This document shows, in pieces, positions 828 through 20,424 of a DNA stretch of 21,869 nt. Numbering within the stretch: the stretch's first letter is position 1; the number at the start of each line of letters is the position of its first letter. The DNA comes from a virus: the IMG/VR virus record IMGVR_UViG_3300042453_004506, positions 1 through 21,869 of that record, one strand, 5' to 3'. The notes beneath the pieces are model-generated. The model searched no databases and had not been told where the DNA came from. It worked only from the letters and a program-made list of their open reading frames with translations. The translations under genes were made by a program, and so were the position numbers.

Positions 828-1019
828 TTACGCGACGATCTCAACTGCATAGACTTCTGCAGAATCTGGCAGCTCACTCACTTCGATCCATACTCGGCCT
901 TCAATTCCGACAATATGGCACTGAACTAGATCTTGATTTCTAAATTGCTTCTTTATCTGATTCCCAGACTTTGGCGGATGAAACATGCACAATCGTGACT
1001 GGATCTTCTCATTCGCCAT
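828..1019 (-). CDS. small hypothetical protein
   Basis: A GTG two codons upstream at 1025 is an alternative start. I prefer the ATG at 1019 because GGAGG lies 9 bases before it, whereas the spacing to the GTG would be only 3. The product is about 63 residues with single cysteines and the segment GRVWIEVSELPDSAEVYAVEIV, similar in look to IRVWVEINDL in the following gene. The start overlaps the end of the HAD gene by 11 bases, so translation is coupled. No family recognised. Confidence 0.6.
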   Translation of the reverse strand: MANEKIQSRLCMFHPPKSGNQIKKQFRNQDLVQCHIVGIEGRVWIEVSELPDSAEVYAVEIVA

Positions 1020-1470
1020 TTTCACTGTCCTCCATCCCGTATTTCTCGATGAGCCACTTCCATGTATGGCCGCCCATTGTCATGCCGTACCGAAGCGCTC
1101 GGTCATCGATAAACACGGCGGCCTGTGGCTTTCCTTGTCGGCCGTCATCAATCGCATCAATCTCGTCTCTAAGATTCTCTTCTACAAAGTCTATCATCTG
1201 CTGATACCTTGCTCGATGCAGAGATCTCTGTTTCTCCCAAGCATTCATGTTTACTTTTTTCTTGCCCGCCCGAACCAGCGGATCGAGCTGCGGGTCTTCC
1301 AGCAAAGCACGAGAAGCTCTCGCCGAATAAAGTAAAACAAGGTGGCCAGCTCTTTTGAACGACCGAAGAGCCTCTTTGGCGTGCGGCAAGAGTTCTAGTG
1401 GAGTTGTCAGATCGTTATAGTCTCTGTCTTGAGAAACGATAGTGCCATCAAAATCAACGGCGATCACCAT
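1009..1470 (-). CDS. HAD-superfamily phosphatase-like protein
   Basis: 153 residues. It begins with the HAD motif I, DFDGT at residues 6-10: D6 would be the nucleophile and D8 the acid/base. A motif II serine or threonine fits S49 in LLYSAR, and an acidic motif IV is seen as IDD at 121-123. The protein is short and has little cap, as in the phage HAD-like proteins related to 5'-nucleotidases or polynucleotide kinase phosphatase domains. The substrate cannot be told from sequence; a nucleotide or a DNA end is the usual guess. The start (ATG at 1470) overlaps the portal stop by 17 bases and has GGAG 6 bases upstream, so it is coupled to the structural operon. Confidence 0.85.
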   Translation of the reverse strand: MVIAVDFDGTIVSQDRDYNDLTTPLELLPHAKEALRSFKRAGHLVLLYSARASRALLEDPQLDPLVRAGKKKVNMNAWEKQRSLHRARYQQMIDFVEENLRDEIDAIDDGRQGKPQAAVFIDDRALRYGMTMGGHTWKWLIEKYGMEDSENGE

Positions 1471-3889: not shown

Positions 3890-4519
3890 CTACTGTGGTT
3901 CTGCCATTATGCGAATAATTGCCAGCGCTTTTTCCTCGTCCTCGTCGAGAGGAATATTCAACCACATTTTCATCCATTTCTTTTTTGTATCTTCAGAGAC
4001 ATTGAAGAAGATAGCCGGCGACTTTGACTCTTTTTCTTGAAGCAACGACTGGTCGTCCCCAAAGAGGTCACCCATGTCTCCGACTCCATCTAGGAGTTCT
4101 TTCTCAAAACTCGCATCATTGACTAGGTCAGCAAGCAAAGATGAGATTCCACTACGCTCGTCCGCGTCGACAAAATCGGCCAGAGCACTGATCGCATCCT
4201 TGTCCGTCTCTGCTAGTGCGGCAATCGGGTCGATTGTGGCAAGAATCGTCGCCTCTTCCTTCTCTGAAAGACTTACATACTTCACAGGAATCTTCTCTTC
4301 CCCCTTGGAAGCGGCAAGCTCTACTCGAAGGTGTCCATCAACGATCAGTCCTGTTTCTTGGTTCACGATAACTTCTTGCACCCACCCGACCGTTGAGAGT
4401 ACTTCATTCAATACATCTTTCTGATGCTGAGGATGCACTCTCCAATTCCTCGGATTTGCAACAAGCTCTTTGGGATTTGCTAGCCCGCTTGCAATGATTC
4501 TATTTTTATAGCTCTTCAT
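3890..4519 (-). CDS. ParB/Srx-fold protein (ParB N-domain-like)
   Basis: 209 residues. The N-terminal 90 residues match the ParB-like nuclease/sulfiredoxin fold: ANPRNWRVHP at 21-30, a helix, then IVNQETGLIVDGHLRVELA at 52-69, where the G-H-x-R motif forms the nucleotide-binding site in ParB and Srx relatives. It is followed by EKEEATILATIDPIAALAE, a typical continuation in phage members. The C-terminal half is acidic and helical. In phages this family often sits next to a DNA methylase and is thought to bind or nick DNA; here a Dam-type methylase lies just upstream, separated by one small gene. The start overlaps the 60-residue gene by ATGA. Enzymatic activity (CTPase, nuclease) is not provable from sequence. 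Confidence 0.85.
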   Translation of the reverse strand: MKSYKNRIIASGLANPKELVANPRNWRVHPQHQKDVLNEVLSTVGWVQEVIVNQETGLIVDGHLRVELAASKGEEKIPVKYVSLSEKEEATILATIDPIAALAETDKDAISALADFVDADERSGISSLLADLVNDASFEKELLDGVGDMGDLFGDDQSLLQEKESKSPAIFFNVSEDTKKKWMKMWLNIPLDEDEEKALAIIRIMAEPQ

Positions 4520-4698
4520 TTGCGTCTCTTCTTCACCAAAGGCGTTTCATCATACTTGTTTCTTTTGGGAGCAGGCTCTTGCACAAAGTCAAAACTCGCT
4601 TGTTCTTCAAGTCCCGCTTGTGTCTTTTTTGTAAGGTCTTGGTTTATTTCTCTCCAGTAAATTAGCTCACTACTTTTCTTTGTTTCCTGTTCTGACAT
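4516..4698 (-). CDS. small charged hypothetical protein between methylase and ParB-like genes
   Basis: 60 residues, highly charged, with a basic C-terminus (ETPLVKKRRK) and no cysteine or membrane segment. It overlaps the methylase gene by 29 bases and the ParB-like gene by ATGA, which makes it a credible coupled gene despite its size. AAGGA lies about 9 bases before the ATG. It may be a small partner of the methylase or ParB-like protein; that is inference from position only. Confidence 0.6.
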   Translation of the reverse strand: MSEQETKKSSELIYWREINQDLTKKTQAGLEEQASFDFVQEPAPKRNKYDETPLVKKRRK

Positions 4699-5188
4699 TC
4701 TGTATTTTCCTTAGAAGCTTTCCGTGCTCGCCAAAAACATCACAAAATAGTTGTTCTCTATGTCCGAAATACACTATTGCCGACGGGAATGGAGCTGATG
4801 ATGGAGCGCCAAGAAAAGTAAGGCGACCTGACCAAAACAAGCAAAGGTTGCAATACTCTAGCATCAATTGCATCCAAAACGTATCTGTGCGAGAAGGAAC
4901 GAGAGCGATAATCTCCGTCCCGTCTCTTCCTTCCATGACCATCTTTCGACTCCAATCCGCAATTACTCTGCCATACGGTGGATTGCAGTATACCAATCCA
5001 CGACCGTTCCACGCCGCCCTTAGGCCATCTTGTCCATTTTCTAGCGAAAGACTTTCTCGTGCCCCAACAAGAGAATTGGGATTCGAGCATGGGTCAAGAC
5101 CAATCTCTCCCATCTTCTTAACAAGATCGACGACTTTCTGAGGGGTATTCCAGTCGATTCGGTCTGATGAAAAAAGCGCATTTTCCAT
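4670..5188 (-). CDS. dam: phage DNA N-6-adenine methyltransferase (Dam-type)
   Basis: 172 residues, the usual size of the phage Dam family. Visible motifs are DWNTP at 12-16, GLDPCSNP at 30-37 (the SAM-binding region of this family) and CNPPYG at 68-73, the catalytic motif IV that acts on the adenine amino group. There is no restriction partner nearby, so this is an orphan methylase, probably protecting phage DNA or marking it for packaging or gene control. Relatives are often GATC-specific, but specificity is not readable here. It matters because four promoters in this window carry a GATC in the spacer. It lies 2 bases after the transglycosylase stop and overlaps the next gene by 29 bases. 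Confidence 0.88.
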   Translation of the reverse strand: MENALFSSDRIDWNTPQKVVDLVKKMGEIGLDPCSNPNSLVGARESLSLENGQDGLRAAWNGRGLVYCNPPYGRVIADWSRKMVMEGRDGTEIIALVPSRTDTFWMQLMLEYCNLCLFWSGRLTFLGAPSSAPFPSAIVYFGHREQLFCDVFGEHGKLLRKIQNVRTGNKEK

Positions 5189-8043: not shown

Positions 8044-8510
8044 TATTTGCTAGTCTCCACTAACTTATGAGCTTCCGCCAATGAGGACTGTGCGTCCTGT
8101 AGCTTTTGACGCACCTCATCGAGAGAAGACCGCCCGGAAAGCTCCGACAACAAGCCAATTGCTCCGTCTACAAGTATCTTCGCTGCCTTTATGTCTTCTG
8201 TTATTGCCGAAGCGCTTATTGTCGGCGACGCGGACACCGCAACACTTTCTGGTGGCTTTGGCGGTTTGTATTCAAGTCCTGTAGCTTGAAAAACGTGTCT
8301 CGACAAAACCTCTTTTCTAACAGAGATGATGCCTAGGCCGTTGTTTTCGTGTCTATGGTATTGCACGAAATGACTAAGTCTTGCCTGCTGACGCACCGCG
8401 TCATCAGGCAGCATCAAAATATCTGCTAACTCACTAGTCTCAAACAAGCCTCTTGAGATAGCCATCTCAAAATTATTGAACAAAAAATGATCAAGTACCG
8501 ACCGTCTCAT
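8043..8510 (-). CDS. hypothetical protein with C-terminal coiled coil
   Basis: 155 residues. The first 80 residues look globular (SELADILMLPDDAVRQQARLSHFVQY could be a winged-helix or HTH-like segment). Residues 86-103 form a Ser/Ala/Pro linker, and the last 50 are a helical, heptad-like stretch (LDEVRQKLQDAQSSLAEAHKLV). The start overlaps the zinc-finger gene by 20 bases, and no strong Shine-Dalgarno is seen, so it probably depends on coupling. Family not recognised; an oligomeric DNA-binding or adaptor protein is a guess. Confidence 0.65.
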   Translation of the reverse strand: MRRSVLDHFLFNNFEMAISRGLFETSELADILMLPDDAVRQQARLSHFVQYHRHENNGLGIISVRKEVLSRHVFQATGLEYKPPKPPESVAVSASPTISASAITEDIKAAKILVDGAIGLLSELSGRSSLDEVRQKLQDAQSSLAEAHKLVETSK

Positions 8511-9030
8511 GTTGTTTCGTCTTGCCCCTTAGTTGTCGTTGCACTTCAGCTCGATGCCTTTGCTTTGCTCTGGTGATTAAAACGTAAAGCTCTGGGTCTT
8601 CTTCTTTGAAGAGCCGCCGATACTCTCTTTGTCGATAGTTTGTATACAGTCGAAGGCATTCTCTCGAACATGTCTTTTGCTGCTGGGTTCCGCCAATTCG
8701 CACGAAGGTCTTTTTGCAGATGAGACAGGCCGTCTCAGAGCGTTTTAGAGGCCGATTCTTCTTTGCATATGGAACCTGCTTTCGGACGCTAGCGCGACAC
8801 AAGTCGGAACAATAAGAATGATGCCTGCAATACGGAATAAAAGCATGACCACAAACAAGACAGGGCCGAGAATGGCTTTCAATATGAAGCTGTCTTTTGC
8901 TGCTTCTTACTTCTAGTAGTCTTTGTCGATAGCATTCTAGGGAGCAACAAGAAAGTCTTCTACTGGTCACGAGGCGGGCCGAAGACCCACAACAAGAACA
9001 ACTACGATTCTCCAACATGACCCTCATCAT
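8491..9030 (-). CDS. triple treble-clef zinc-finger protein (paralogue A)
   Basis: 179 residues with three repeats of CxxC-x13 to 15-CxxxC: C11/C14 with C29/C33, C57/C60 with C74/C78, and C102/C105 with C121/C125. The second half of each finger reads CSxxC, followed by a basic helix (LYTNYRQREYRRL after finger 3). The C-terminal 50 residues are Arg/Lys-rich. The same three-finger plan recurs in the gene at 10357-10911. Such fingers usually bind nucleic acid and resemble the CSxxC clusters that precede HNH domains in some phage proteins, but no HNH is present. Two further in-frame ATGs (9027, 9018) make the exact start uncertain. Confidence 0.78.
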   Translation of the reverse strand: MMRVMLENRSCSCCGSSARLVTSRRLSCCSLECYRQRLLEVRSSKRQLHIESHSRPCLVCGHAFIPYCRHHSYCSDLCRASVRKQVPYAKKNRPLKRSETACLICKKTFVRIGGTQQQKTCSRECLRLYTNYRQREYRRLFKEEDPELYVLITRAKQRHRAEVQRQLRGKTKQHETVGT

Positions 9031-9301: not shown

Positions 9302-9627
9302 TACGACAAGACCTCCCATAATAAGCCATTAAGCATGATTGTCTCCAGTGATTCCTCTTCTATTTCATCCAAGCGCTCACCGTCTCTTACCGCCGACACG
9401 ACCAAAGGGCCGCCCTCTCCGAAGTATGAGAGACTGCCAATCGTATTGTAGCTCACAAAGTCAATTGCCTCTTCAATGGCCTTGTCTAACTCAATTCGTT
9501 CTTTGCTGTTTTTGACAAAGTGCTCGGCGTAACAGCGAACGAGAGACTCATAGTCATAAATGACTCGACCGTTTTGAGTAGCAATGATGGCATTGTCTAG
9601 GTCTTCTCTAGGCTCAAGATAAATCAT
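9301..9627 (-). CDS. acidic hypothetical protein downstream of thyX
   Basis: The ATG at 9627 has AAGGAG 7 bases upstream and overlaps the thyX stop as ATGA; a longer frame to 9660 would lie inside thyX and lacks such support. About 108 residues, acidic, ending in a helical EEESLETIMLNGLLWEVL. Coupling to thyX hints at a link to nucleotide metabolism, but no motif supports a function. Confidence 0.7.
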   Translation of the reverse strand: MIYLEPREDLDNAIIATQNGRVIYDYESLVRCYAEHFVKNSKERIELDKAIEEAIDFVSYNTIGSLSYFGEGGPLVVSAVRDGERLDEIEEESLETIMLNGLLWEVLS

Positions 9628-10301
9628 GTGTTCACTCCTTCTTCTACCAATGCAGACCAAGAATGGGGAAAAGACTTCTCCACGAGTTGCCCTAGTGCGA
9701 TAGCGTAGTCTCTGATTTCTTGCTGAGCTGTCTTTTCAGTGCGGAGAGAGTAAATCCTAGCATACGCGGCTAAAGAGCCTGTTTCTATAAATTCGGTAAA
9801 CATTGCCTGTGGCAGAATCATGCGAGCTTGTTCTGCACAGACATTATCCTCTAGCAACATGTGATAAGTACGAAGAGACTCTCTGTAAGACTGTCGCATT
9901 AAGTTAAGGAGTACACCACTAAAGGTATGCTCTTCATCAGAAGAACCTTGCTTTACATTTTCTGCAGACATGCGAAGATATTGTGGCAAGTAAAATTCAG
10001 GCTCTGAAGTAACGTACCGTCTTGAAACTTCGTTTCTTGTCAAGCCTACTGAATGCTTATACCATTGTCTTGCGACAAAGATAGGCATCCGAATTCTAAA
10101 TCGTAAATGAGGCTGCGCGAACGGAGTGTAGTGGTTATGCTTTGCAAGATACTTGATGAGACGAATGTCTGAAGAATCCAGTTCGCTTTTTTGCTTTGAA
10201 AATGAAACCCTAGCCGCATTGACAACTGTCAGGTCATCCCCAAGAACATCCTGAAGCTCAATGCAGCCACCACCGGCAATGGAAATCAATCTCTCATTCA
10301 T
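9624..10301 (-). CDS. thyX: flavin-dependent thymidylate synthase
   Basis: 225 residues, full length. ThyX makes dTMP from dUMP using methylene-tetrahydrofolate and FAD. The signature region at 78-96 reads RQWYKHSVGLTRNEVSRRY. It keeps the NEVSRRY half of the ThyX motif (RHRxxSxNExSxRY), but the RHR half is replaced by RQW-KH, a variant I know from other phage ThyX proteins. NAARVSF at 28-34 and HYTPFAQPHLRFRI at 57-70 (folate and substrate pocket) and the C-terminal TAQQEIRDYAIAL helix also fit. AAGGAG lies 5 bases before the ATG, and the gene has its own promoter at 10321-10349. It lets the phage make thymidylate independently of host ThyA. Confidence 0.96.
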   Translation of the reverse strand: MNERLISIAGGGCIELQDVLGDDLTVVNAARVSFSKQKSELDSSDIRLIKYLAKHNHYTPFAQPHLRFRIRMPIFVARQWYKHSVGLTRNEVSRRYVTSEPEFYLPQYLRMSAENVKQGSSDEEHTFSGVLLNLMRQSYRESLRTYHMLLEDNVCAEQARMILPQAMFTEFIETGSLAAYARIYSLRTEKTAQQEIRDYAIALGQLVEKSFPHSWSALVEEGVNT

Positions 10302-10356: not shown

Positions 10357-10911
10357 TCAACATATTCTTGCTCTTTGTTTACGAGCCTGTCTTCTGAATT
10401 TTGCAAGCTCATCTAGTTTTTGTCGATATTGTAGCCATGCCTCAGAGCCGTGCTCATTCAAGAACTTTTCCTTGTTTCGTGCGTAGGTGCCTGTGTTGTT
10501 GTACTTCTTCGAGCACTTCTTTCCGCATGTAAGTGCGGTATGCCTAGGCCAAGCCTGCCTAAATGGCTTTTTACACTGGTTGCATTCGACGAACGGATCG
10601 GTGAGTCGGTCTTTGGCTCGGTCTGATTGTCGCTGTTTATCTCTTTTTCTTGACCTGCAAATTCCGGAGCAGAATCGGTGAATTGAATTCAGAGGCTCAA
10701 AACTTCGTAGACAATACCCGCACTGTGATGTCGAGTATGTGACCGGCGACTTTTTCTTCTCTTCTCGATACTTTATGTTTCTTCTGCGATGAGCTTCGGT
10801 CTGGCATTTCATCCCACAGTACTTTACTCGTGGCCCGGCCATGAAAGCAGATTTGCAGATTCCACACTCTTTTTCTTTCTTTTGAGGCTTGAACTTCCAC
10901 CACCATATCAT
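10357..10911 (-). CDS. triple treble-clef zinc-finger protein (paralogue B)
   Basis: About 184 residues. A GTG three codons earlier (10920) abuts the previous stop, but AGGTGA is 5 bases before the ATG at 10911, which I prefer. Counting from the GTG, fingers are C19/C22 with C35/C39, C67/C70 with C84/C88, and C113/C116 with C132/C136: the same CxxC-x12 to 15-CxxxC plan, three times, as in 8491-9030. Basic linkers (HRRRNIKYREEKKK, RSRKRDKQRQSDRAKDR) and a basic C-terminal helix point to nucleic-acid binding. The two proteins look like an old duplication with little sequence left in common beyond the zinc ligands. Confidence 0.8.
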   Translation of the reverse strand: MIWWWKFKPQKKEKECGICKSAFMAGPRVKYCGMKCQTEAHRRRNIKYREEKKKSPVTYSTSQCGYCLRSFEPLNSIHRFCSGICRSRKRDKQRQSDRAKDRLTDPFVECNQCKKPFRQAWPRHTALTCGKKCSKKYNNTGTYARNKEKFLNEHGSEAWLQYRQKLDELAKFRRQARKQRARIC

Positions 10912-10920
10912 GTGCGTCAC

Positions 10921-13214: not shown

Positions 13215-13475
13215 TTACTTGGCCTTCGTTACATTTCGAATAGTAACTGTATATTCAACAAGATGTAGGCCATCAGAAAGTTGAACGGCGTATCCGGCTT
13301 GTAGCTTTGTGTTGTCGGCTGATGCGCCAATCGATTCTTCTTTGTCTTTGTGCTTGAGGAGATCGGCGGAGTCCCTGAGAGACTGAAAGAACATTGATTG
13401 TATTTGAGACTTGAAGTGAGGATTGTCTTCCATTCGAGTTTCCTTGACCGCATAAAAGACATTCGGAAAGTTCAT
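13215..13475 (-). CDS. hypothetical protein, last gene of the que/dpdA operon
   Basis: 86 residues. N-terminal NFPNVFYAVKETRM, a helical centre, and a C-terminal strand-rich part (LQAGYAVQLSDGLHLVEYTVTIRNV). It starts directly after the stop of the 150-residue gene (TAAATG), so it is read through from the 7-deazaguanine genes. No family recognised. Its operon position makes it a candidate accessory to DNA modification, but it may simply be a passenger. Confidence 0.65.
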   Translation of the reverse strand: MNFPNVFYAVKETRMEDNPHFKSQIQSMFFQSLRDSADLLKHKDKEESIGASADNTKLQAGYAVQLSDGLHLVEYTVTIRNVTKAK

Positions 13476-13928
13476 TTAGTTGACGGCGATGCTATCGACT
13501 AACTCTTGTCGCAAGGACATCGCCTCTTCCATGTACATCTCGTAAAAGTGACAATGTGTACGATACAGTGTCTCAATCCATGACAATTCTTCCGGCCAAT
13601 AAGCGGTATCGCTGAGAGCCAAAAAAACACAACTTAGCGCCTCCGGTTTTTCGATTAAGCGTTCAATCGAGCATCGACAGTCTACAAAAAAACCATCTAA
13701 TTCAAGAAAAAACTGCAAGTCTAGCAATGTTACATAATCTGAGCTTGGGTGCATGACTTGCTCGAGCTGAATGAACACACGGAGGTTGTCGTAAAAAATT
13801 TTGCAATGAAATTGTTCATGGCGAGTGCTTATAGGGCTTTGAACAGGACATCGTTCGGAAAACTCTTGAAAAGAAATGCTTTTTATTTCCCGCCGATAGA
13901 TAAGCTCTTGCTGTTGCCAAATGCTCAA
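13476..13928 (-). CDS. unknown 150-residue protein coupled to dpdA
   Basis: The start is TTG at 13928, overlapping the dpdA stop as TTGA, with GGAGG 6 bases upstream, so translation is tightly coupled to dpdA. Seven scattered cysteines (including CRCSIE) and many aromatic residues (YDNLRVF, FFLELDGFFVDCR, YWPEELSWIETLYRTHCHFYEMY) give a compact, partly helical protein. I recognise no family and see no SAM, ATP or Rossmann motif. Coupling to dpdA suggests it helps DpdA or tailors the inserted base; that is inference from position. Confidence 0.7.
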   Translation of the reverse strand: MSIWQQQELIYRREIKSISFQEFSERCPVQSPISTRHEQFHCKIFYDNLRVFIQLEQVMHPSSDYVTLLDLQFFLELDGFFVDCRCSIERLIEKPEALSCVFLALSDTAYWPEELSWIETLYRTHCHFYEMYMEEAMSLRQELVDSIAVN

Positions 13929-14593
13929 AACAAGCCTCCTTGCTGCTTTAGTTTGTCGATGGTATTCATGAAAAATGGCAACTTAATTTTCGTAAATCGG
14001 CAGATGCCCGTACCATCGACGGAGTCAACTCCCCACTCATATGCTAGCTTGTATCTCTTCGCGGAGTTCACTCGCCCCATATGAACGAGCTTTCCCAATA
14101 CCTTCGCTCTCGATGCTAGCGTCCTAGCCTGTTCGGATAGCTTGAATTCCGTCGTGCCTCCGATAAAGACTGCGGCGATATCGCTCCAAGGTATATCTTG
14201 TTCAATAACTCCGTCCTGAAGGACAAAGGCCATTGGAAGGTTCCTGTCCTGCAGCTCTTTCTTCCATTGGCCGAATGACTCTAGCGTTTCTGTGTGAGAG
14301 CCTACTTTGTCGGGAACGTTTATCCACATGCACCCGTCTCGGTTCTTCGCCGCAAAATCAAGCATTCGAAGATACGCCGGCCCGTCAAAGTCTGCGAAAG
14401 AATTATTATCGCAAGCCCAAGGACAACCGAACTCTTCATAGTATCTCACCGACTTTAAGATCCGAGAATGCTCGTATGGCACACAGAGAATTCCAAGGTT
14501 TCGAGAATACATCTGCAGATAATGGTCAATGTCTTTAGGGATATTATTCAAAAGAGCGCGGAAATCTCTAAACCCTACGCTATCATTTGCCAT
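13925..14593 (-). CDS. dpdA: phage DpdA, DNA 7-deazaguanine transglycosylase
   Basis: 222 residues, TGT-like barrel, much shorter than bacterial DpdA or tRNA-guanine transglycosylase but typical of the compact phage form. Family-typical segments in order: WACDNNSF at 59-66, VPDKVG at 93-98, FVLQDG at 123-128, FIGGTTEFKL at 143-152, HMGRVNS at 171-177 and DSVDGTG at 190-196. Conserved aspartates (62, 95, 127, 190, 193) include the likely nucleophile; I cannot say which. The enzyme exchanges guanine in DNA for preQ0 or a derivative. It overlaps folE by 19 bases with GGAG 8 bases before the ATG. Context (folE, queE, queD, queC upstream) makes a DNA rather than tRNA role very likely. Confidence 0.88.
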   Translation of the reverse strand: MANDSVGFRDFRALLNNIPKDIDHYLQMYSRNLGILCVPYEHSRILKSVRYYEEFGCPWACDNNSFADFDGPAYLRMLDFAAKNRDGCMWINVPDKVGSHTETLESFGQWKKELQDRNLPMAFVLQDGVIEQDIPWSDIAAVFIGGTTEFKLSEQARTLASRAKVLGKLVHMGRVNSAKRYKLAYEWGVDSVDGTGICRFTKIKLPFFMNTIDKLKQQGGLF

Positions 14594-15111
14594 AGTCTTT
14601 TCTCCATTTCGGCGTTCTCTAAAAATTGTCCGCTGAGATGAACGGTAACAAACTCGGCCCTATCCTGCATAACGCCTCGATGAGCCATACAGCCGTGCGT
14701 TGACTTGATTACACAGAAACTGCCTTTGGTCGGAATGTACTTATCAAGAGCTGAGAGAATCTCTTCACCTAGACGTTCTTGAAGCTGTAGTCTCCTTGAT
14801 AGGCAATCTACGAGACGTGCGAGCTTGCTTAGCCCGACAAGACTTTCTGGAGTAGCAGCATAGCCTAGGGATATTGTTCCGCTAAATGGCAGAAGATGAT
14901 GCTCGCAGACGCTTGTAAACTTCACTTGTCTCAATGCGACAATTCCAATGTATTTCTCCATGTTGTCAAACTGCTTCTCTAGTATTTCAGAGGGTTGCTG
15001 CTGGTATCCAGAGAGCATCTCTATCAGTGCCTTTTGGAATCGTCGGGGAGTATTTTCTCGTATTTCCTCGCCGGTGTTCAAAGACGCAAGCAAATCACTT
15101 AGCCAATCCAT
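14575..15111 (-). CDS. folE: GTP cyclohydrolase I
   Basis: 178 residues, lacking the long N-terminal helices of E. coli FolE but with the full catalytic core. VCEHHLLPFSG at 68-78 gives zinc ligands C69 and H72; GLSKLARLVD at 93-102 and RLQLQERL at 107-114 are the usual core; GCMAHRGV at 140-147 gives the third zinc ligand, C141. It converts GTP to 7,8-dihydroneopterin triphosphate, the first step to preQ0. The start lies one base after the queE stop with AGGTGAT just ahead. It could also feed folate for ThyX, but operon membership points to deazaguanine synthesis. Confidence 0.95.
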   Translation of the reverse strand: MDWLSDLLASLNTGEEIRENTPRRFQKALIEMLSGYQQQPSEILEKQFDNMEKYIGIVALRQVKFTSVCEHHLLPFSGTISLGYAATPESLVGLSKLARLVDCLSRRLQLQERLGEEILSALDKYIPTKGSFCVIKSTHGCMAHRGVMQDRAEFVTVHLSGQFLENAEMEKRLWQMIA

Positions 15112-15112
15112 A

Positions 15113-15733
15113 TCACCTCACAAAGTAATCTTTATGCAGCTGCCATCCCGCCCTTAACCTCGGGTTGTTTTTCACCGCATTTGCAATAGATGCCAAGACT
15201 TCCGGTTGATTTCTCCGGCTCTCTTCAGGCTGAAGCCAAATATCGCAGCATCTTTCTCCGACCAGTTGAAGCTGTTCTTTCAGTTCTTTTTCTCCTGAGA
15301 CAATGAGCTTGATCTGCGTAGCTTTTCCCATGTTCTCTTCAAGAGGTTCTTTGCCAAACATCCACTTGGGGCTAACAGTGATACAGTCGAATTCGCCTCG
15401 TATTGGTAGATGCCCCGCCGTCTCAAGATGAATCTTTCGCCCTTGCGCACGAATAGCATCTGTGATTGCCGTAAGATCGTAAAGGCATGGTTCTCCGCCT
15501 GTAAGCACGACAAAGACATCCCTGTGAAGCTCAGAAACGAGAGAACTGATCTGCTCGGCAGATAGTCGTTCAATTTTAGGGCGAAGTTCTTTCTTCCAAG
15601 TGAATGCGGAATCACACCATGTACATTGTACGTCGCAACCATACAATCGAACGAAGTATGCAGCTCTGCCTATATGCAATCCTTCACCTTGAAATGAGAA
15701 GAAATGCTCTGCTACAGAATATAGCTTGCCCAT
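15113..15733 (-). CDS. queE: 7-carboxy-7-deazaguanine synthase (radical SAM)
   Basis: 206 residues from the ATG at 15733 (MGKLYS...), which matches the family N-terminus; a GTG six codons earlier is possible. FSFQGEGLHIGR at 12-23, the 4Fe-4S cluster motif CX3CX2C at C33/C37/C40 (GCDVQCTWCD) and TGGEP at 78-82 mark QueE. It rearranges 6-carboxy-tetrahydropterin to 7-carboxy-7-deazaguanine using SAM and Mg2+. The start overlaps queD by 22 bases. Confidence 0.95.
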   Translation of the reverse strand: MGKLYSVAEHFFSFQGEGLHIGRAAYFVRLYGCDVQCTWCDSAFTWKKELRPKIERLSAEQISSLVSELHRDVFVVLTGGEPCLYDLTAITDAIRAQGRKIHLETAGHLPIRGEFDCITVSPKWMFGKEPLEENMGKATQIKLIVSGEKELKEQLQLVGERCCDIWLQPEESRRNQPEVLASIANAVKNNPRLRAGWQLHKDYFVR

Positions 15734-16104
15734 GTCTTCCAATCTCCACACCGCTCGGTAACGTCACACCTCGCTAGTTGCACCATGTTCTCTCTCAGTG
15801 TTTCTTTAAGAAGCTCGCTCGCTATCTCGAAGAAATACTTTGCAAGATTCTCCGCTGAGGGGTTGAATGAGAGAATCTCGTTTAAGTTTTGATGGTCTAA
15901 TTCATCAACCATCGGCTTTATCTTCTCTCGAATGTCTCCGAAGTCAATCAGCCACGCTCTGGAGTCTAAAGCATCTCCTCTGAACACAAAGCGAACGGCC
16001 CAAGAGTGGCCATGAAGTCGCTTGCAATGATGACCATCAGGAGCATTCGGATTGCTATGAGCCGCGCAGAAGTCAAACTCTTTGGCACATTCAAAGTATG
16101 GCAT
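15712..16104 (-). CDS. queD: 6-carboxytetrahydropterin synthase
   Basis: 130 residues, standard for QueD. Zinc-binding histidines H16 (FCAAH), H31 and H33 (LHGH), catalytic cysteine C27 (CKRLHGH), the D70/H71 pair in LDHQNLNE, PSAENLA at 82-88 and E117 in VTERCGDW are all present. It turns dihydroneopterin triphosphate into 6-carboxy-tetrahydropterin. GGAGG lies 4 bases before the ATG, and the gene overlaps queC by 14 bases and queE by 22. Confidence 0.95.
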   Translation of the reverse strand: MPYFECAKEFDFCAAHSNPNAPDGHHCKRLHGHSWAVRFVFRGDALDSRAWLIDFGDIREKIKPMVDELDHQNLNEILSFNPSAENLAKYFFEIASELLKETLRENMVQLARCDVTERCGDWKTWASYIL

Positions 16105-16765
16105 CGTGCCTCCTTCTTACATACTGAGTTGGGTCTTGTATGCCGGCGAACTCAAATGCTTCCTGTCTCTCGTAGCATGTGCCACAAGTGCCACAGTGAA
16201 TCATTTGCCCCTTGTAGCAAGACCATGTAAGGTCTATGGGCACGCCTATTCTATGAGCCAAAGCAGCAATATCTTGCTTTGTCATTTCGATGAATGGAGA
16301 AGCGATCTCGATTGGAGACTCGTTGCCGACCTGCAAAGCACTGCTAAGTCTTAAGATGAAATCTTTTCGGCAATCTGGATAGATAAACGCATCTCCTGCG
16401 TGAGCCGCAAACGCGACGATATCTGCACCGGAATCTATTGCTTTCGCATATGCGATTGACAGCATAATGGCATTTCGATTCGGGACGACGGTCGCCTTCA
16501 TTGTTGGGTCTGCATAATGTCCATTCGGGACACTTTTGTTCAGCTCCGTGAGGCACGACATTTCAAACCCTACAGTTTGAAGGTCAACTATGGCGTTGGC
16601 GACCCCGTAGTATATTGCCAGTTTGTGCGCGTATTCTAACTCTCTATTATGTCTCTGCCCGTAATTGAAAGATACCGTTACGCAGCGAAATCCCTCTCGC
16701 AACAAGAACGCCAACAGCGTCGCGCTGTCCAGCCCTCCGCTCAGTAGCACAATAGCCGTCTTCAT
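16091..16765 (-). CDS. queC: 7-cyano-7-deazaguanine (preQ0) synthase
   Basis: 224 residues from the ATG at 16765, which has GGAG 7 bases upstream and lies just after the predicted transcription start; a frame extending to 16822 would include the promoter itself and is rejected. PP-loop SGGLDS at 9-14, FNYGQRH at 33-39, VPNRNAI at 94-100, AHAGDAFIYPDCR at 121-133, and the zinc cluster C183, C191, C194, C197 (CYKGQMIHCGTCGTC). It converts 7-carboxy-7-deazaguanine plus ammonia and ATP to preQ0. It is the first gene of the seven-gene operon. It is a stand-alone QueC, without the fused glutaminase domain seen in Gat-QueC. Confidence 0.96.
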   Translation of the reverse strand: MKTAIVLLSGGLDSATLLAFLLREGFRCVTVSFNYGQRHNRELEYAHKLAIYYGVANAIVDLQTVGFEMSCLTELNKSVPNGHYADPTMKATVVPNRNAIMLSIAYAKAIDSGADIVAFAAHAGDAFIYPDCRKDFILRLSSALQVGNESPIEIASPFIEMTKQDIAALAHRIGVPIDLTWSCYKGQMIHCGTCGTCYERQEAFEFAGIQDPTQYVRRRHDAIL

Positions 16766-16774
16766 GCTGTATCT

Positions 16775-16792
16775 CCTTTCCAGCAAGAAAGG
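16775..16792 (-). promoter_or_regulatory. hairpin in the queC leader next to the ribosome site
   Basis: Inverted repeat CCTTTC / GAAAGG with a 6-base loop. On the minus strand it covers the predicted 5' end of the transcript, and its 3' arm runs into the Shine-Dalgarno sequence (GAAAGGAG), so folding could limit ribosome access to queC. The leader is too short, about 22 bases, for a preQ1 riboswitch. The hairpin may be chance. Confidence 0.35.
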
Positions 16793-16793
16793 A

Positions 16794-16822
16794 ACGCTAA
16801 CACGCATAAGATCTGGTGTCAA
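16794..16822 (-). promoter_or_regulatory. promoter of the que-folE-dpdA operon, GATC in spacer
   Basis: Minus strand: TTGACA, 17-base spacer, TAGCGT (a weak -10). The first 8 spacer bases, CCAGATCT, are identical to those of the promoter at 6054-6082. The predicted start near 16787 is 22 bases before the queC ATG. The weak -10 may make the promoter dependent on an activator. Confidence 0.65.
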
Positions 16823-16840: not shown

Positions 16841-16895
16841 GAAAGAAAAACCGGAGCCTCCGAGAAGAAGAGAGAGAAGATTCGGAGGCTCCGGT
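16841..16895 (-). terminator. strong intrinsic terminator after the PP-loop gene
   Basis: A perfect 14-base inverted repeat, arms at 16850-16863 and 16882-16895 (ACCGGAGCCTCCGA and its complement), with an 18-base purine loop. On the minus strand it is followed by TTTTTCTTTC. It begins 11 bases after the stop of the 16906-17811 gene and lies just before the queC promoter, so the two units are insulated. Confidence 0.92.
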
Positions 16896-16905
16896 CAAGA
16901 GTAGA

Positions 16906-17811
16906 TTATTTCTTGTTTTCGTCGTCTATGTTTGTCTCACATAGACCCCAACGCATGCAACCGGCATCTTTTTCGTCCGCAGAGAAAAGCTCAAACTGTC
17001 TCCCTCCGTGAGCTGTCTTGCTCCACTGGACAACGTCTTCGATTGGGAACGAGCCATCTGCATTTCCGGCGCTTCCTGAAGACTTTGCCTGAAAGAACGT
17101 CGGCAGATACTTTGGCTTCTCTCCCTTTGCCTCTGCCTGTTCTTCCATCTTGCGAGCAAGAGTATCTTCGAGTCTTTTGATTCGAGATATTCTCTCTGGA
17201 TAGTTTTCAGCAATGAATCGAATCTCGTTCTTGCGTGCAAAGATGCAAGGAAAGCATCCTACACGAGATGCTCCCTTCAAGTACAGGGGATTTGGTGTCA
17301 CATCATGCTTTCTGTGCATGTCGATCACGTCTTGCTCCGTAAACTGAAGAAGCGGTCGCCATGTTTCACAATCAAATCCATCACTCCACTCCCATTCGTC
17401 CATCTTCGCTCGTGCCGCACTTTCTCCTCGACGAATTCCTACCGCATTTACAAAGTCATCATCAAACGTGAGTGTTTCAAAGTACTTCTTTAGAGGCTGA
17501 ATCTTTAGTTCCCTTGTGCAGAATCTGATAACACGCGACGGGAATAAAGACTTGCGGACAATCAAATCTTCCATTTGATTGTCCGCACTAATCCACGTTA
17601 TGGTGCCGATGTGCTTGGGGAGAACCTCTCGTAAGTAGGTGTATGTCTCCTCGGCCTCCCACCCAGTATCTACAAACACAGCTGTGTATGGGATGCCATT
17701 CTCTCGAAGGTACAGACACATTGCTGTCGAGTCTTTTCCTCCTGACACTGACGCGACTACTGCTCTGTTTCCTAGATGCTCTAGGGACTCTTTGCTGATT
17801 GGTGCGACCAT
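16906..17811 (-). CDS. PP-loop ATPase, PAPS reductase/DndC-like
   Basis: 301 residues. SGGKDST at 23-29 is the PP-loop that binds ATP or an adenylated substrate; FVDTGWE at 46-52 and GIRRGES at 125-131 fit the PAPS reductase/CysH-DndC branch. Cysteines C98 (RFCTRELK), C186/C189 (GCFPC) and C285/C291 (GCMRWGLC) could hold an Fe-S cluster or zinc. Standard CysH has one C-terminal catalytic cysteine; here the extra pairs recall DndC and TtcA-type sulfurtransferases. No other dnd genes are seen. It forms a single-gene unit with its own promoter and strong terminator, directly upstream of the queC unit. Possible roles are sulfur transfer to a base or backbone, a step in base tailoring, or sulfate metabolism; sequence alone does not decide. 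Confidence 0.85.
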   Translation of the reverse strand: MVAPISKESLEHLGNRAVVASVSGGKDSTAMCLYLRENGIPYTAVFVDTGWEAEETYTYLREVLPKHIGTITWISADNQMEDLIVRKSLFPSRVIRFCTRELKIQPLKKYFETLTFDDDFVNAVGIRRGESAARAKMDEWEWSDGFDCETWRPLLQFTEQDVIDMHRKHDVTPNPLYLKGASRVGCFPCIFARKNEIRFIAENYPERISRIKRLEDTLARKMEEQAEAKGEKPKYLPTFFQAKSSGSAGNADGSFPIEDVVQWSKTAHGGRQFELFSADEKDAGCMRWGLCETNIDDENKK

Positions 17812-19641: not shown

Positions 19642-20424
19642 TTAGCGAATATAGCTCGACAATCGCTGGCGCATTACTGTTATTGCCTGTGGATTCTGGT
19701 CTATCAACGTCACGTTTCTGCCTAGCATCGCTCCCGCCTCGCCAAATGAACCACTGCCTGCAAAGAAGTCCAACAGGCTGTCGCCGGGCATAGAGTGAAC
19801 GCGAACTATTCGACTCAACAATCCCAAGGGCTTTTGGGTCGGATAGCCCGTGTTTTCTTTGCTCTGGGTAGGCACAATAGTATGCCACCATGTGTCCGTC
19901 AGCGTCTTGCCCTGTAATGATTTTTCTTTGCTTACGCGCTCTGGAGACAGATACGGCATGCGGTCTATTTCTTCATAGTTGAACCGGTAGTTCTTTCGAT
20001 TTTTTGCATACCATAGGATATTATCGTGCTTTGCAGGCCATCGACTTTTAGAGCGCCCCCCATAGTCGTATGCCCAAATGATCTCGTTTATAAAGTTGCT
20101 CCGTCCGAATATTGAATCCAGTGCGACCTTTACATAGTGAACCTCACGGTAGTCCAAGTGTACGAACATGCTTCCGCCGTCACGAAGAAGTTCATAGCCA
20201 CGCCTTAGACGAGGTAGCAAAAAGCTTAGATAGTTTTCGTAACTGTCAGAGTACGAAAAACTATCGCCCGAAGACAAAACTCGCCGCTGAGTAACGCCCG
20301 TGTTATAGGGCGGGTCGAGATATATCAAATCAAAGCTGCCCGACTCCATGCCGGACATTACGCAAAGGTTGTCTCCTTCGACAATACTTACGGTACCAGA
20401 CAAGCCTAACTCTTGCTGTAGCAT
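19642..20424 (-). CDS. beta-class DNA methyltransferase (N6-adenine or N4-cytosine)
   Basis: 260 residues. Catalytic motif IV is near the N-terminus (LDPPYNTG, about 36-43) and the SAM-binding motif I near the C-terminus (DFFAGSGSFGEA, about 218-229), the order that defines the beta class (N6_N4 methylase family). GYPTQKP precedes motif I as expected. It adds a methyl group to the exocyclic amine of A or C; specificity is not readable. No restriction enzyme gene is near, so it is an orphan, probably for protection from host restriction. It is the second amino-methylase of the window and is unrelated in layout to the Dam-type one. GGAG lies 12 bases before the ATG, a loose spacing, but an upstream in-frame stop excludes earlier starts. 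Confidence 0.93.
   Translation of the reverse strand: MLQQELGLSGTVSIVEGDNLCVMSGMESGSFDLIYLDPPYNTGVTQRRVLSSGDSFSYSDSYENYLSFLLPRLRRGYELLRDGGSMFVHLDYREVHYVKVALDSIFGRSNFINEIIWAYDYGGRSKSRWPAKHDNILWYAKNRKNYRFNYEEIDRMPYLSPERVSKEKSLQGKTLTDTWWHTIVPTQSKENTGYPTQKPLGLLSRIVRVHSMPGDSLLDFFAGSGSFGEAGAMLGRNVTLIDQNPQAITVMRQRLSSYIR

Follow-up and report, generated by a model that had tools for sequence, protein, structure and literature searches.

The seven-gene operon described here probably supplies preQ0 and, through a compact transglycosylase of the DpdA kind, swaps it into phage DNA, thereby blocking restriction. It lies in the virus record IMGVR_UViG_3300042453_004506, the whole of which (21,869 bases, classified as linear and a probable fragment) forms the window analyzed. 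Bases of the 7-deazaguanine type shield phage DNA from restriction, and the inserting enzyme determines which guanines are changed. The preQ0 pathway itself is known; what is new is the compact DpdA subfamily, which lacks a zinc subdomain, and the tie of this subfamily to preQ0 supply. Our reading draws on an intact biosynthetic pathway, a coupled operon, a predicted tRNA-guanine transglycosylase (TGT) fold, conserved catalytic residues, and the recurrent association of the family with preQ0 supply. A widespread family of proteins of ~200 aa, mostly labelled hypothetical and present in at least 206 viral contigs, thereby gains a link to preQ0 and a TGT-type active site, and modified DNA is accordingly predicted for many phages, both actinophages and environmental ones, whose genomes are annotated without it. 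The compact DpdA is also a very small enzyme of its class, which may suit biochemistry or use as a tool.

A coupled operon for preQ0 synthesis

The seven genes run on the minus strand from 16765 to 13215, overlapping or abutting and without internal stops, in the order queC, queD, queE, folE, the TGT-like gene, and two orphan ORFs (Table 1); the same strand holds every other nameable gene of the record. This is the operon of the preliminary description, with each ORF in its place and with the close packing claimed for it: the successive junctions from queC to the 86-aa ORF measure −14, −22, +1, −19, −4, and 0 nt, and all seven genes are therefore very probably co-transcribed and coupled. Only the outer limit shifts. 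A TTG at 16822 had been given as the edge, whereas the ATG at 16765 is preferred as the queC start because a strong Shine–Dalgarno sequence (AAAGGAG) directly precedes it. Strong Shine–Dalgarno sites are also found upstream of queD and the 150-aa ORF, and queE most likely starts at the ATG at 15733.

Table 1. Features of the operon region, in order of transcription
Feature	Coordinates	Strand	Length	Evidence and remarks
Intrinsic terminator	16851..16894	−		CCGGAGCCTCCGA...TCGGAGGCTCCGG followed by TTTTT; direct sequence reading, inner stem also recovered by scan
queC, preQ0 synthase (CDG to preQ0)	16091..16765	−	224 aa	PF06508 E 1e-61; phrog_1550 E 3e-65
queD, 6-carboxytetrahydropterin synthase	15712..16104	−	130 aa	PF01242 (PTPS) E 1e-29; TIGR03367 E 7e-25; overlaps queC by 14 nt
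queE, radical-SAM 7-carboxy-7-deazaguanine synthase	15113..15733	−	206 aa	phrog_2076 E 4e-35; TIGR04322 E 1e-30; overlaps queD by 22 nt
folE, GTP cyclohydrolase I	14575..15111	−	178 aa	PF01227 E 4e-48; begins 1 nt past queE
Compact DpdA (TGT-like)	13925..14593	−	222 aa	AlphaFold2, Foldseek, profile alignment, family neighbors; overlaps folE by 19 nt
Orphan ORF	13476..13928	−	150 aa	TTG start, Shine–Dalgarno AAGGAGG; 4-nt overlap with compact DpdA
Orphan ORF	13215..13475	−	86 aa	ATG immediately past previous stop, no Shine–Dalgarno

The terminator, a strong one with a long stem and a T run, sits between an upstream PAPS-reductase gene and queC, so that the operon forms its own transcription unit. 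Transcription from one promoter, as had been proposed, is plausible given a TTGACA-like box between the terminator and queC, but a consensus scan returned no site there. Rfam and tRNA searches of the record were empty, with no known preQ1 riboswitch. No close phage relative was recovered in the collections searched, TerL being at most 28% identical to that of named phages, nor did the DNA of the operon region have a nucleotide-level match in them.

The preQ0 pathway described for this DNA is complete, and its four enzymes are confidently identified, with catalytic, metal, and ATP motifs intact in each case. QueC matches TIGR00364 above its cut-off and carries the SGGLDS ATP loop and a C-x7-CxxCxxC zinc motif, without a fused glutaminase domain; QueD has the CxxxHGH motif, QueE a radical SAM match (E 2e-8) and the CxxxCxxC cluster motif, and FolE a CEHH motif. 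Together, FolE, QueD, QueE, and QueC would convert GTP to preQ0 (7-cyano-7-deazaguanine).

The two terminal genes, previously listed as uncharacterized, do appear to be coding: codon bias is best in frame and resembles that of the rest of the genome, and shuffled copies remain open in just 0.0% and 0.7% of trials. The shorter ORF is likely translationally coupled to the longer one. Neither has relatives in Pfam, PHROGs, NCBIfam, PADLOC, phage and plasmid records, or viral contigs, and an AlphaFold model of the 150-aa protein, built without relatives, is uninformative (pLDDT 49). Their place at the end of the operon suggests that they take part in the pathway.

A compact transglycosylase with a TGT-type active site

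The name dpdA for the fifth gene needed proof, because its sole family match is an unnamed PHROG (phrog_15826, E 1e-45). The protein has no significant match to a Pfam or NCBIfam model, the Pfam TGT family included; short matches to Pfam DUF4096 (E 0.0017) and an NCBIfam IS5-transposase model (E 0.03) lie far under the cut-off and were dismissed as chance. Plain phmmer and hmmsearch comparisons with the PDB likewise gave chance matches only, and the link to TGT came from fold comparison. An AlphaFold2 model built from an alignment of 52 sequences (pLDDT 93.4, pTM 0.90) has tRNA-guanine transglycosylases as its best PDB matches (Foldseek E 8e-7, probability 1.0), at a moderate TM-score of ~0.56, and among its viral fold matches are proteins annotated as queuine transglycosylases in Mycobacterium phage Bella96 and in the Arthrobacter phages Mufasa8 and Sonali. 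The predicted structure is thus a TGT-type barrel, and its C-terminus falls where the zinc subdomain of a TGT would start.

Conservation within the family points to the same enzyme class. Across the 52 compact-family sequences, 18 columns are invariant and the active-site series Asp/Asp/(Gln or His)/Gly-Gly/Asp is present; residues D62, N63, P94, D95, Q126, G128, F143, G145, G146, K151, H171, G173, R174, R180, and D193 are invariant in 70 distinct relatives. Alignment with hhalign to 87 DpdA1-type proteins, at a probability of 52–72%, pairs D62 with D72, D95 with D114, Q126 with H141, the two Gly-Gly pairs, H171 with H196, and D193 with D215 (numbering of the 9g DpdA). The catalytic and base-binding positions of TGT (D102, D156, Q203, G229–230, and D280 in Zymomonas) were mapped onto the compact protein by motif order. 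By analogy, Asp193 would serve as nucleophile, Asp62 and Asp95 would handle the base, and Gln126 and the Gly-Gly loop would take part in its recognition. The window protein departs from its relatives at two semi-conserved positions, with PDKVGS for PDVVGD and DNNSF for DNGxF. The fold and the profile alignment therefore uphold the dpdA name in a broad sense, but this is not an ordinary DpdA, and the protein databases Pfam and NCBIfam do not recognize it as one.

Relation to known DpdA and TGT enzymes

The compact protein falls outside DpdA1 as delimited by similarity to the 9g enzyme and a length of ~300 aa, given its 222 aa and weak profile–profile match. Its active-site residues follow the same order as those of the 9g DpdA1, the His196 position included; however, the 9g enzyme has 317 aa, the compact protein has Gln at the position of His141 and further invariant features (K151 and a GRVN..R motif), and plain tblastn finds no match between them. 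Nor does it belong to DpdA2. The enzyme of Vibrio phage nt-1 is, like the window protein, TGT-like and adjoins preQ0 genes, but it has 464 aa and is reported to lack the conserved His, which the compact family keeps as the invariant H171; the hhalign probability is 0.1%, and the compact profile finds nothing in nt-1. With bacterial Tgt the compact DpdA has a common fold and active-site layout, yet it is ~150 residues shorter and lacks the zinc-binding subdomain.

A wider search with the compact profile covered the whole records of nine phages whose DNA is reported or predicted to contain 7-deazaguanine (9g, Dp-1, nt-1, CAjan, 7-11, HVTV-1, CP220, phiSM, and Laurie), none of which gave a match at E 1e-3. 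The phages with measured DNA therefore say nothing direct about this subfamily. For the DpdA3 and DpdA4 subfamilies, to which the Campylobacter CP220-type and archaeal-virus enzymes belong, it gave one partial, sub-threshold match in CP220 (E 0.007) and none in HVTV-1. The phiSM enzyme was grouped with the DpdA1-type proteins in the DpdA1 profile used. The phages in which dPreQ0 was reported combine FolE, QueD, QueE, and QueC with a DpdA and no amidotransferase, as the window does, but they have a DpdA1-type enzyme of ~300 aa or more (Hutinet et al., 2019; PMC6884629); the whole-record search found no compact family member in CAjan or in Laurie, a relative of Rosebush. The 261-aa DpdA of Pantoea phage MED16, whose DNA contains dADG (PMC8306585), has weak similarity to both the compact and the DpdA1 profiles, which fits a compact family lying inside a wider DpdA group.

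Distribution and genomic neighbors of the family

Scanning viral contigs with the compact DpdA as a single sequence gave no match, and an alignment query was required; this recovered at least 206 confirmed viral contigs, the best 80 of which were taken as loci, along with 27 loci in bacterial genomes. Among the phage relatives, at 34–42% identity, are gp54 of Mycobacterium phage Majeke, genes of Arthrobacter phages annotated as DpdA-like, and proteins listed as hypothetical in Synechococcus, Vibrio, Rhodococcus, and Erythrobacter phages. The Fishburnevirus protein called a DpdA-like tRNA-guanine transglycosylase (Majeke gp54, 40% identical) and the members of phrog_15826 belong to the same family as the window protein, although they are paired with the transporter YhhQ rather than with biosynthesis genes, and their names are annotation only.

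This pairing recurs. In 32 of the best 80 viral loci, yhhQ (the preQ0 transporter family, Vut_1) lies within 600 bp of the compact gene on the same strand, mostly overlapping it, and in the ~0.95 Mb that these loci span it never appears farther away; queC, queD, or queE abuts or overlaps the compact gene in about ten further loci of this set. Such adjacency ties the compact family to preQ0. A quick tree requires 7 changes to account for the que link, of which well-supported branches impose at least 4, and 15 to account for the yhhQ link; both links have therefore formed repeatedly, which favors function over inheritance alone. Among 50 whole records, Vut_1 is present in 20 and QueC in 3, and none has both. 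Of the loci scanned for neighbors, only the window combines all four preQ0 genes with an adjacent compact DpdA and no DpdA1 in view.

Partial sets also occur: five records, up to 78 kb long, carry a compact DpdA with queE only, queD only, or queD and queE, and without queC. This suggests that such phages supplement individual steps of their host's pathway or draw on an intermediate that comes earlier. PAPS-reductase-like genes directly adjoin the compact DpdA gene in Rhodococcus phage ReqiPine5 and in three actinobacterial loci. We do not claim a special link between the two, since the genes are near each other in some loci but spread across kilobases.

Some genomes hold two transglycosylases. 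DpdA1 accompanies the compact DpdA in phages SHIN8, phiG7, R29Z, and Sonali, in the record L186, and in two metagenomic records where queC is present as well. In L186 the compact gene immediately follows DpdA1, and the same run includes queC, queD, folE, clamp, and polymerase genes; SHIN8 likewise has its compact gene in a single run with que genes, DpdA1, clamp, and DNA polymerase. In the Seuratvirus SHIN8 (L002:5827-6473) and in phiG7 two overlapping ORFs between the clamp and DNA polymerase genes make up the compact gene, which may be decaying, contain a frameshift, or encode two subunits. Given this co-occurrence, the compact enzyme may not be the sole inserting enzyme, and phages with both raise a testable question of division of labor. 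A search of the window record with the DpdA1 profile found no match, and 48 of the 50 compact-family records lack a DpdA1-type gene, many of these records being fragments.

Proposed function and alternative readings

The compact DpdA would be a TGT barrel stripped down to a form without the zinc subdomain, replacing guanine in phage DNA with preQ0 by the TGT mechanism; dPreQ0 at some guanines would then keep host restriction enzymes from cutting. Base exchange by this protein is very likely. We infer its DNA target, the insertion of preQ0 instead of a later product, the protection conferred, and an accessory role of the orphan ORFs. In this respect the preliminary description, which had DpdA placing preQ0 in DNA, stands as regards a transglycosylase-like gene coupled to the preQ0 pathway, but its DNA step becomes a presumption about a separate, small subfamily. 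Its choice of dPreQ0 as the expected base is the right default, because dPreQ0 amounts to about 28% of G in Rosebush and about 32% in CAjan, two phages of like gene content (group 2 of Hutinet et al.), and deletion of dpdA in CAjan leaves no dPreQ0 (PMC6884629). It was also correct that the 21.9-kb record has no QueF (PF14489 was not found) and no glutaminase-fused QueC; the record being a fragment, absence of QueF or ArcS says little, and later-acting enzymes may be encoded outside it.

That last point leads to a variant that overlaps with our preferred reading: DNA insertion does occur, but the orphan proteins or genes beyond the record convert the base further. We consider this unlikely. 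The orphan ORFs do close the same coupled run, and other phages make dADG, dG+, and dPreQ1 (PMC6884629; PMC8306585), but neither ORF has a recognizable catalytic domain and no other phage was found with them. A bolder and rather doubtful proposal is that the compact family forms a branch of its own among DNA transglycosylases and does what DpdA1 does not, by acting at different sites or inserting a different base, the orphan proteins tailoring or targeting the modification to yield an undescribed guanine derivative. Against our preferred reading stand the co-occurrence with DpdA1, which would be odd if both enzymes acted identically, the lack of compact-family matches in the characterized phages searched, the hhalign probability to DpdA1 of only 52–72%, and the moderate TM-score to TGT. 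It is unlikely, but consistent with SHIN8, R29Z, Sonali, the adjacent genes of L186, the two metagenomic records, and the fragmentary state of the window, that the compact DpdA is an accessory to a DpdA encoded elsewhere that does the bulk of insertion, acting itself on other sites or a different intermediate, or serving as a partner subunit. The scarcity of DpdA1 among the 50 records, fragments though many are, argues otherwise, as does the compact gene's mostly standing alone or with a transporter, with no DpdA1 in the window record.

A role on tRNA, in which the operon boosts queuosine-type modification in the host and leaves DNA unmodified, seems quite improbable. The fold is that of a TGT, and such a role has been proposed for phages with preQ0 genes and no DpdA (PMC6884629); but the zinc subdomain of TGT is missing, QueF was not found in the record, family members sit between clamp and polymerase genes, and Majeke has the enzyme and the transporter although its host, M. 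smegmatis, lacks the preQ0 pathway (PMC6884629). A relic operon whose transglycosylase is dead is hardly credible: the two deviating semi-conserved positions are all that favors it, whereas every invariant residue is kept, the frames are intact, and the Shine–Dalgarno sites are strong.

Other genes in the record

The PAPS-reductase-family gene upstream of the operon (16906–17811, minus strand) has SspD as its nearest PADLOC model (E 7e-29). A ThyX-type thymidylate synthase gene (9624–10301, minus strand; Thy1 E 1e-39) has HNH-endonuclease-like genes near it at 8491–9030 and 10357–10920. Beside the portal gene, a 153-aa ORF (1009–1470, minus strand) matches a phosphoheptose isomerase PHROG (E 1e-14) and no Pfam family, and that name is doubtful. 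At 3890–5188 on the minus strand, 9 kb from the operon, lie a ParB-like gene and, after it, one for a Dam-type adenine methyltransferase; in phiSM, Sonali, and Laurie, ParB-like genes adjoin genes of the DpdA1 type. A second DNA methyltransferase is encoded at 19642–20424 on the minus strand (N6_N4_Mtase E 3e-46), and the phage may therefore carry methylated bases besides 7-deazaguanine.
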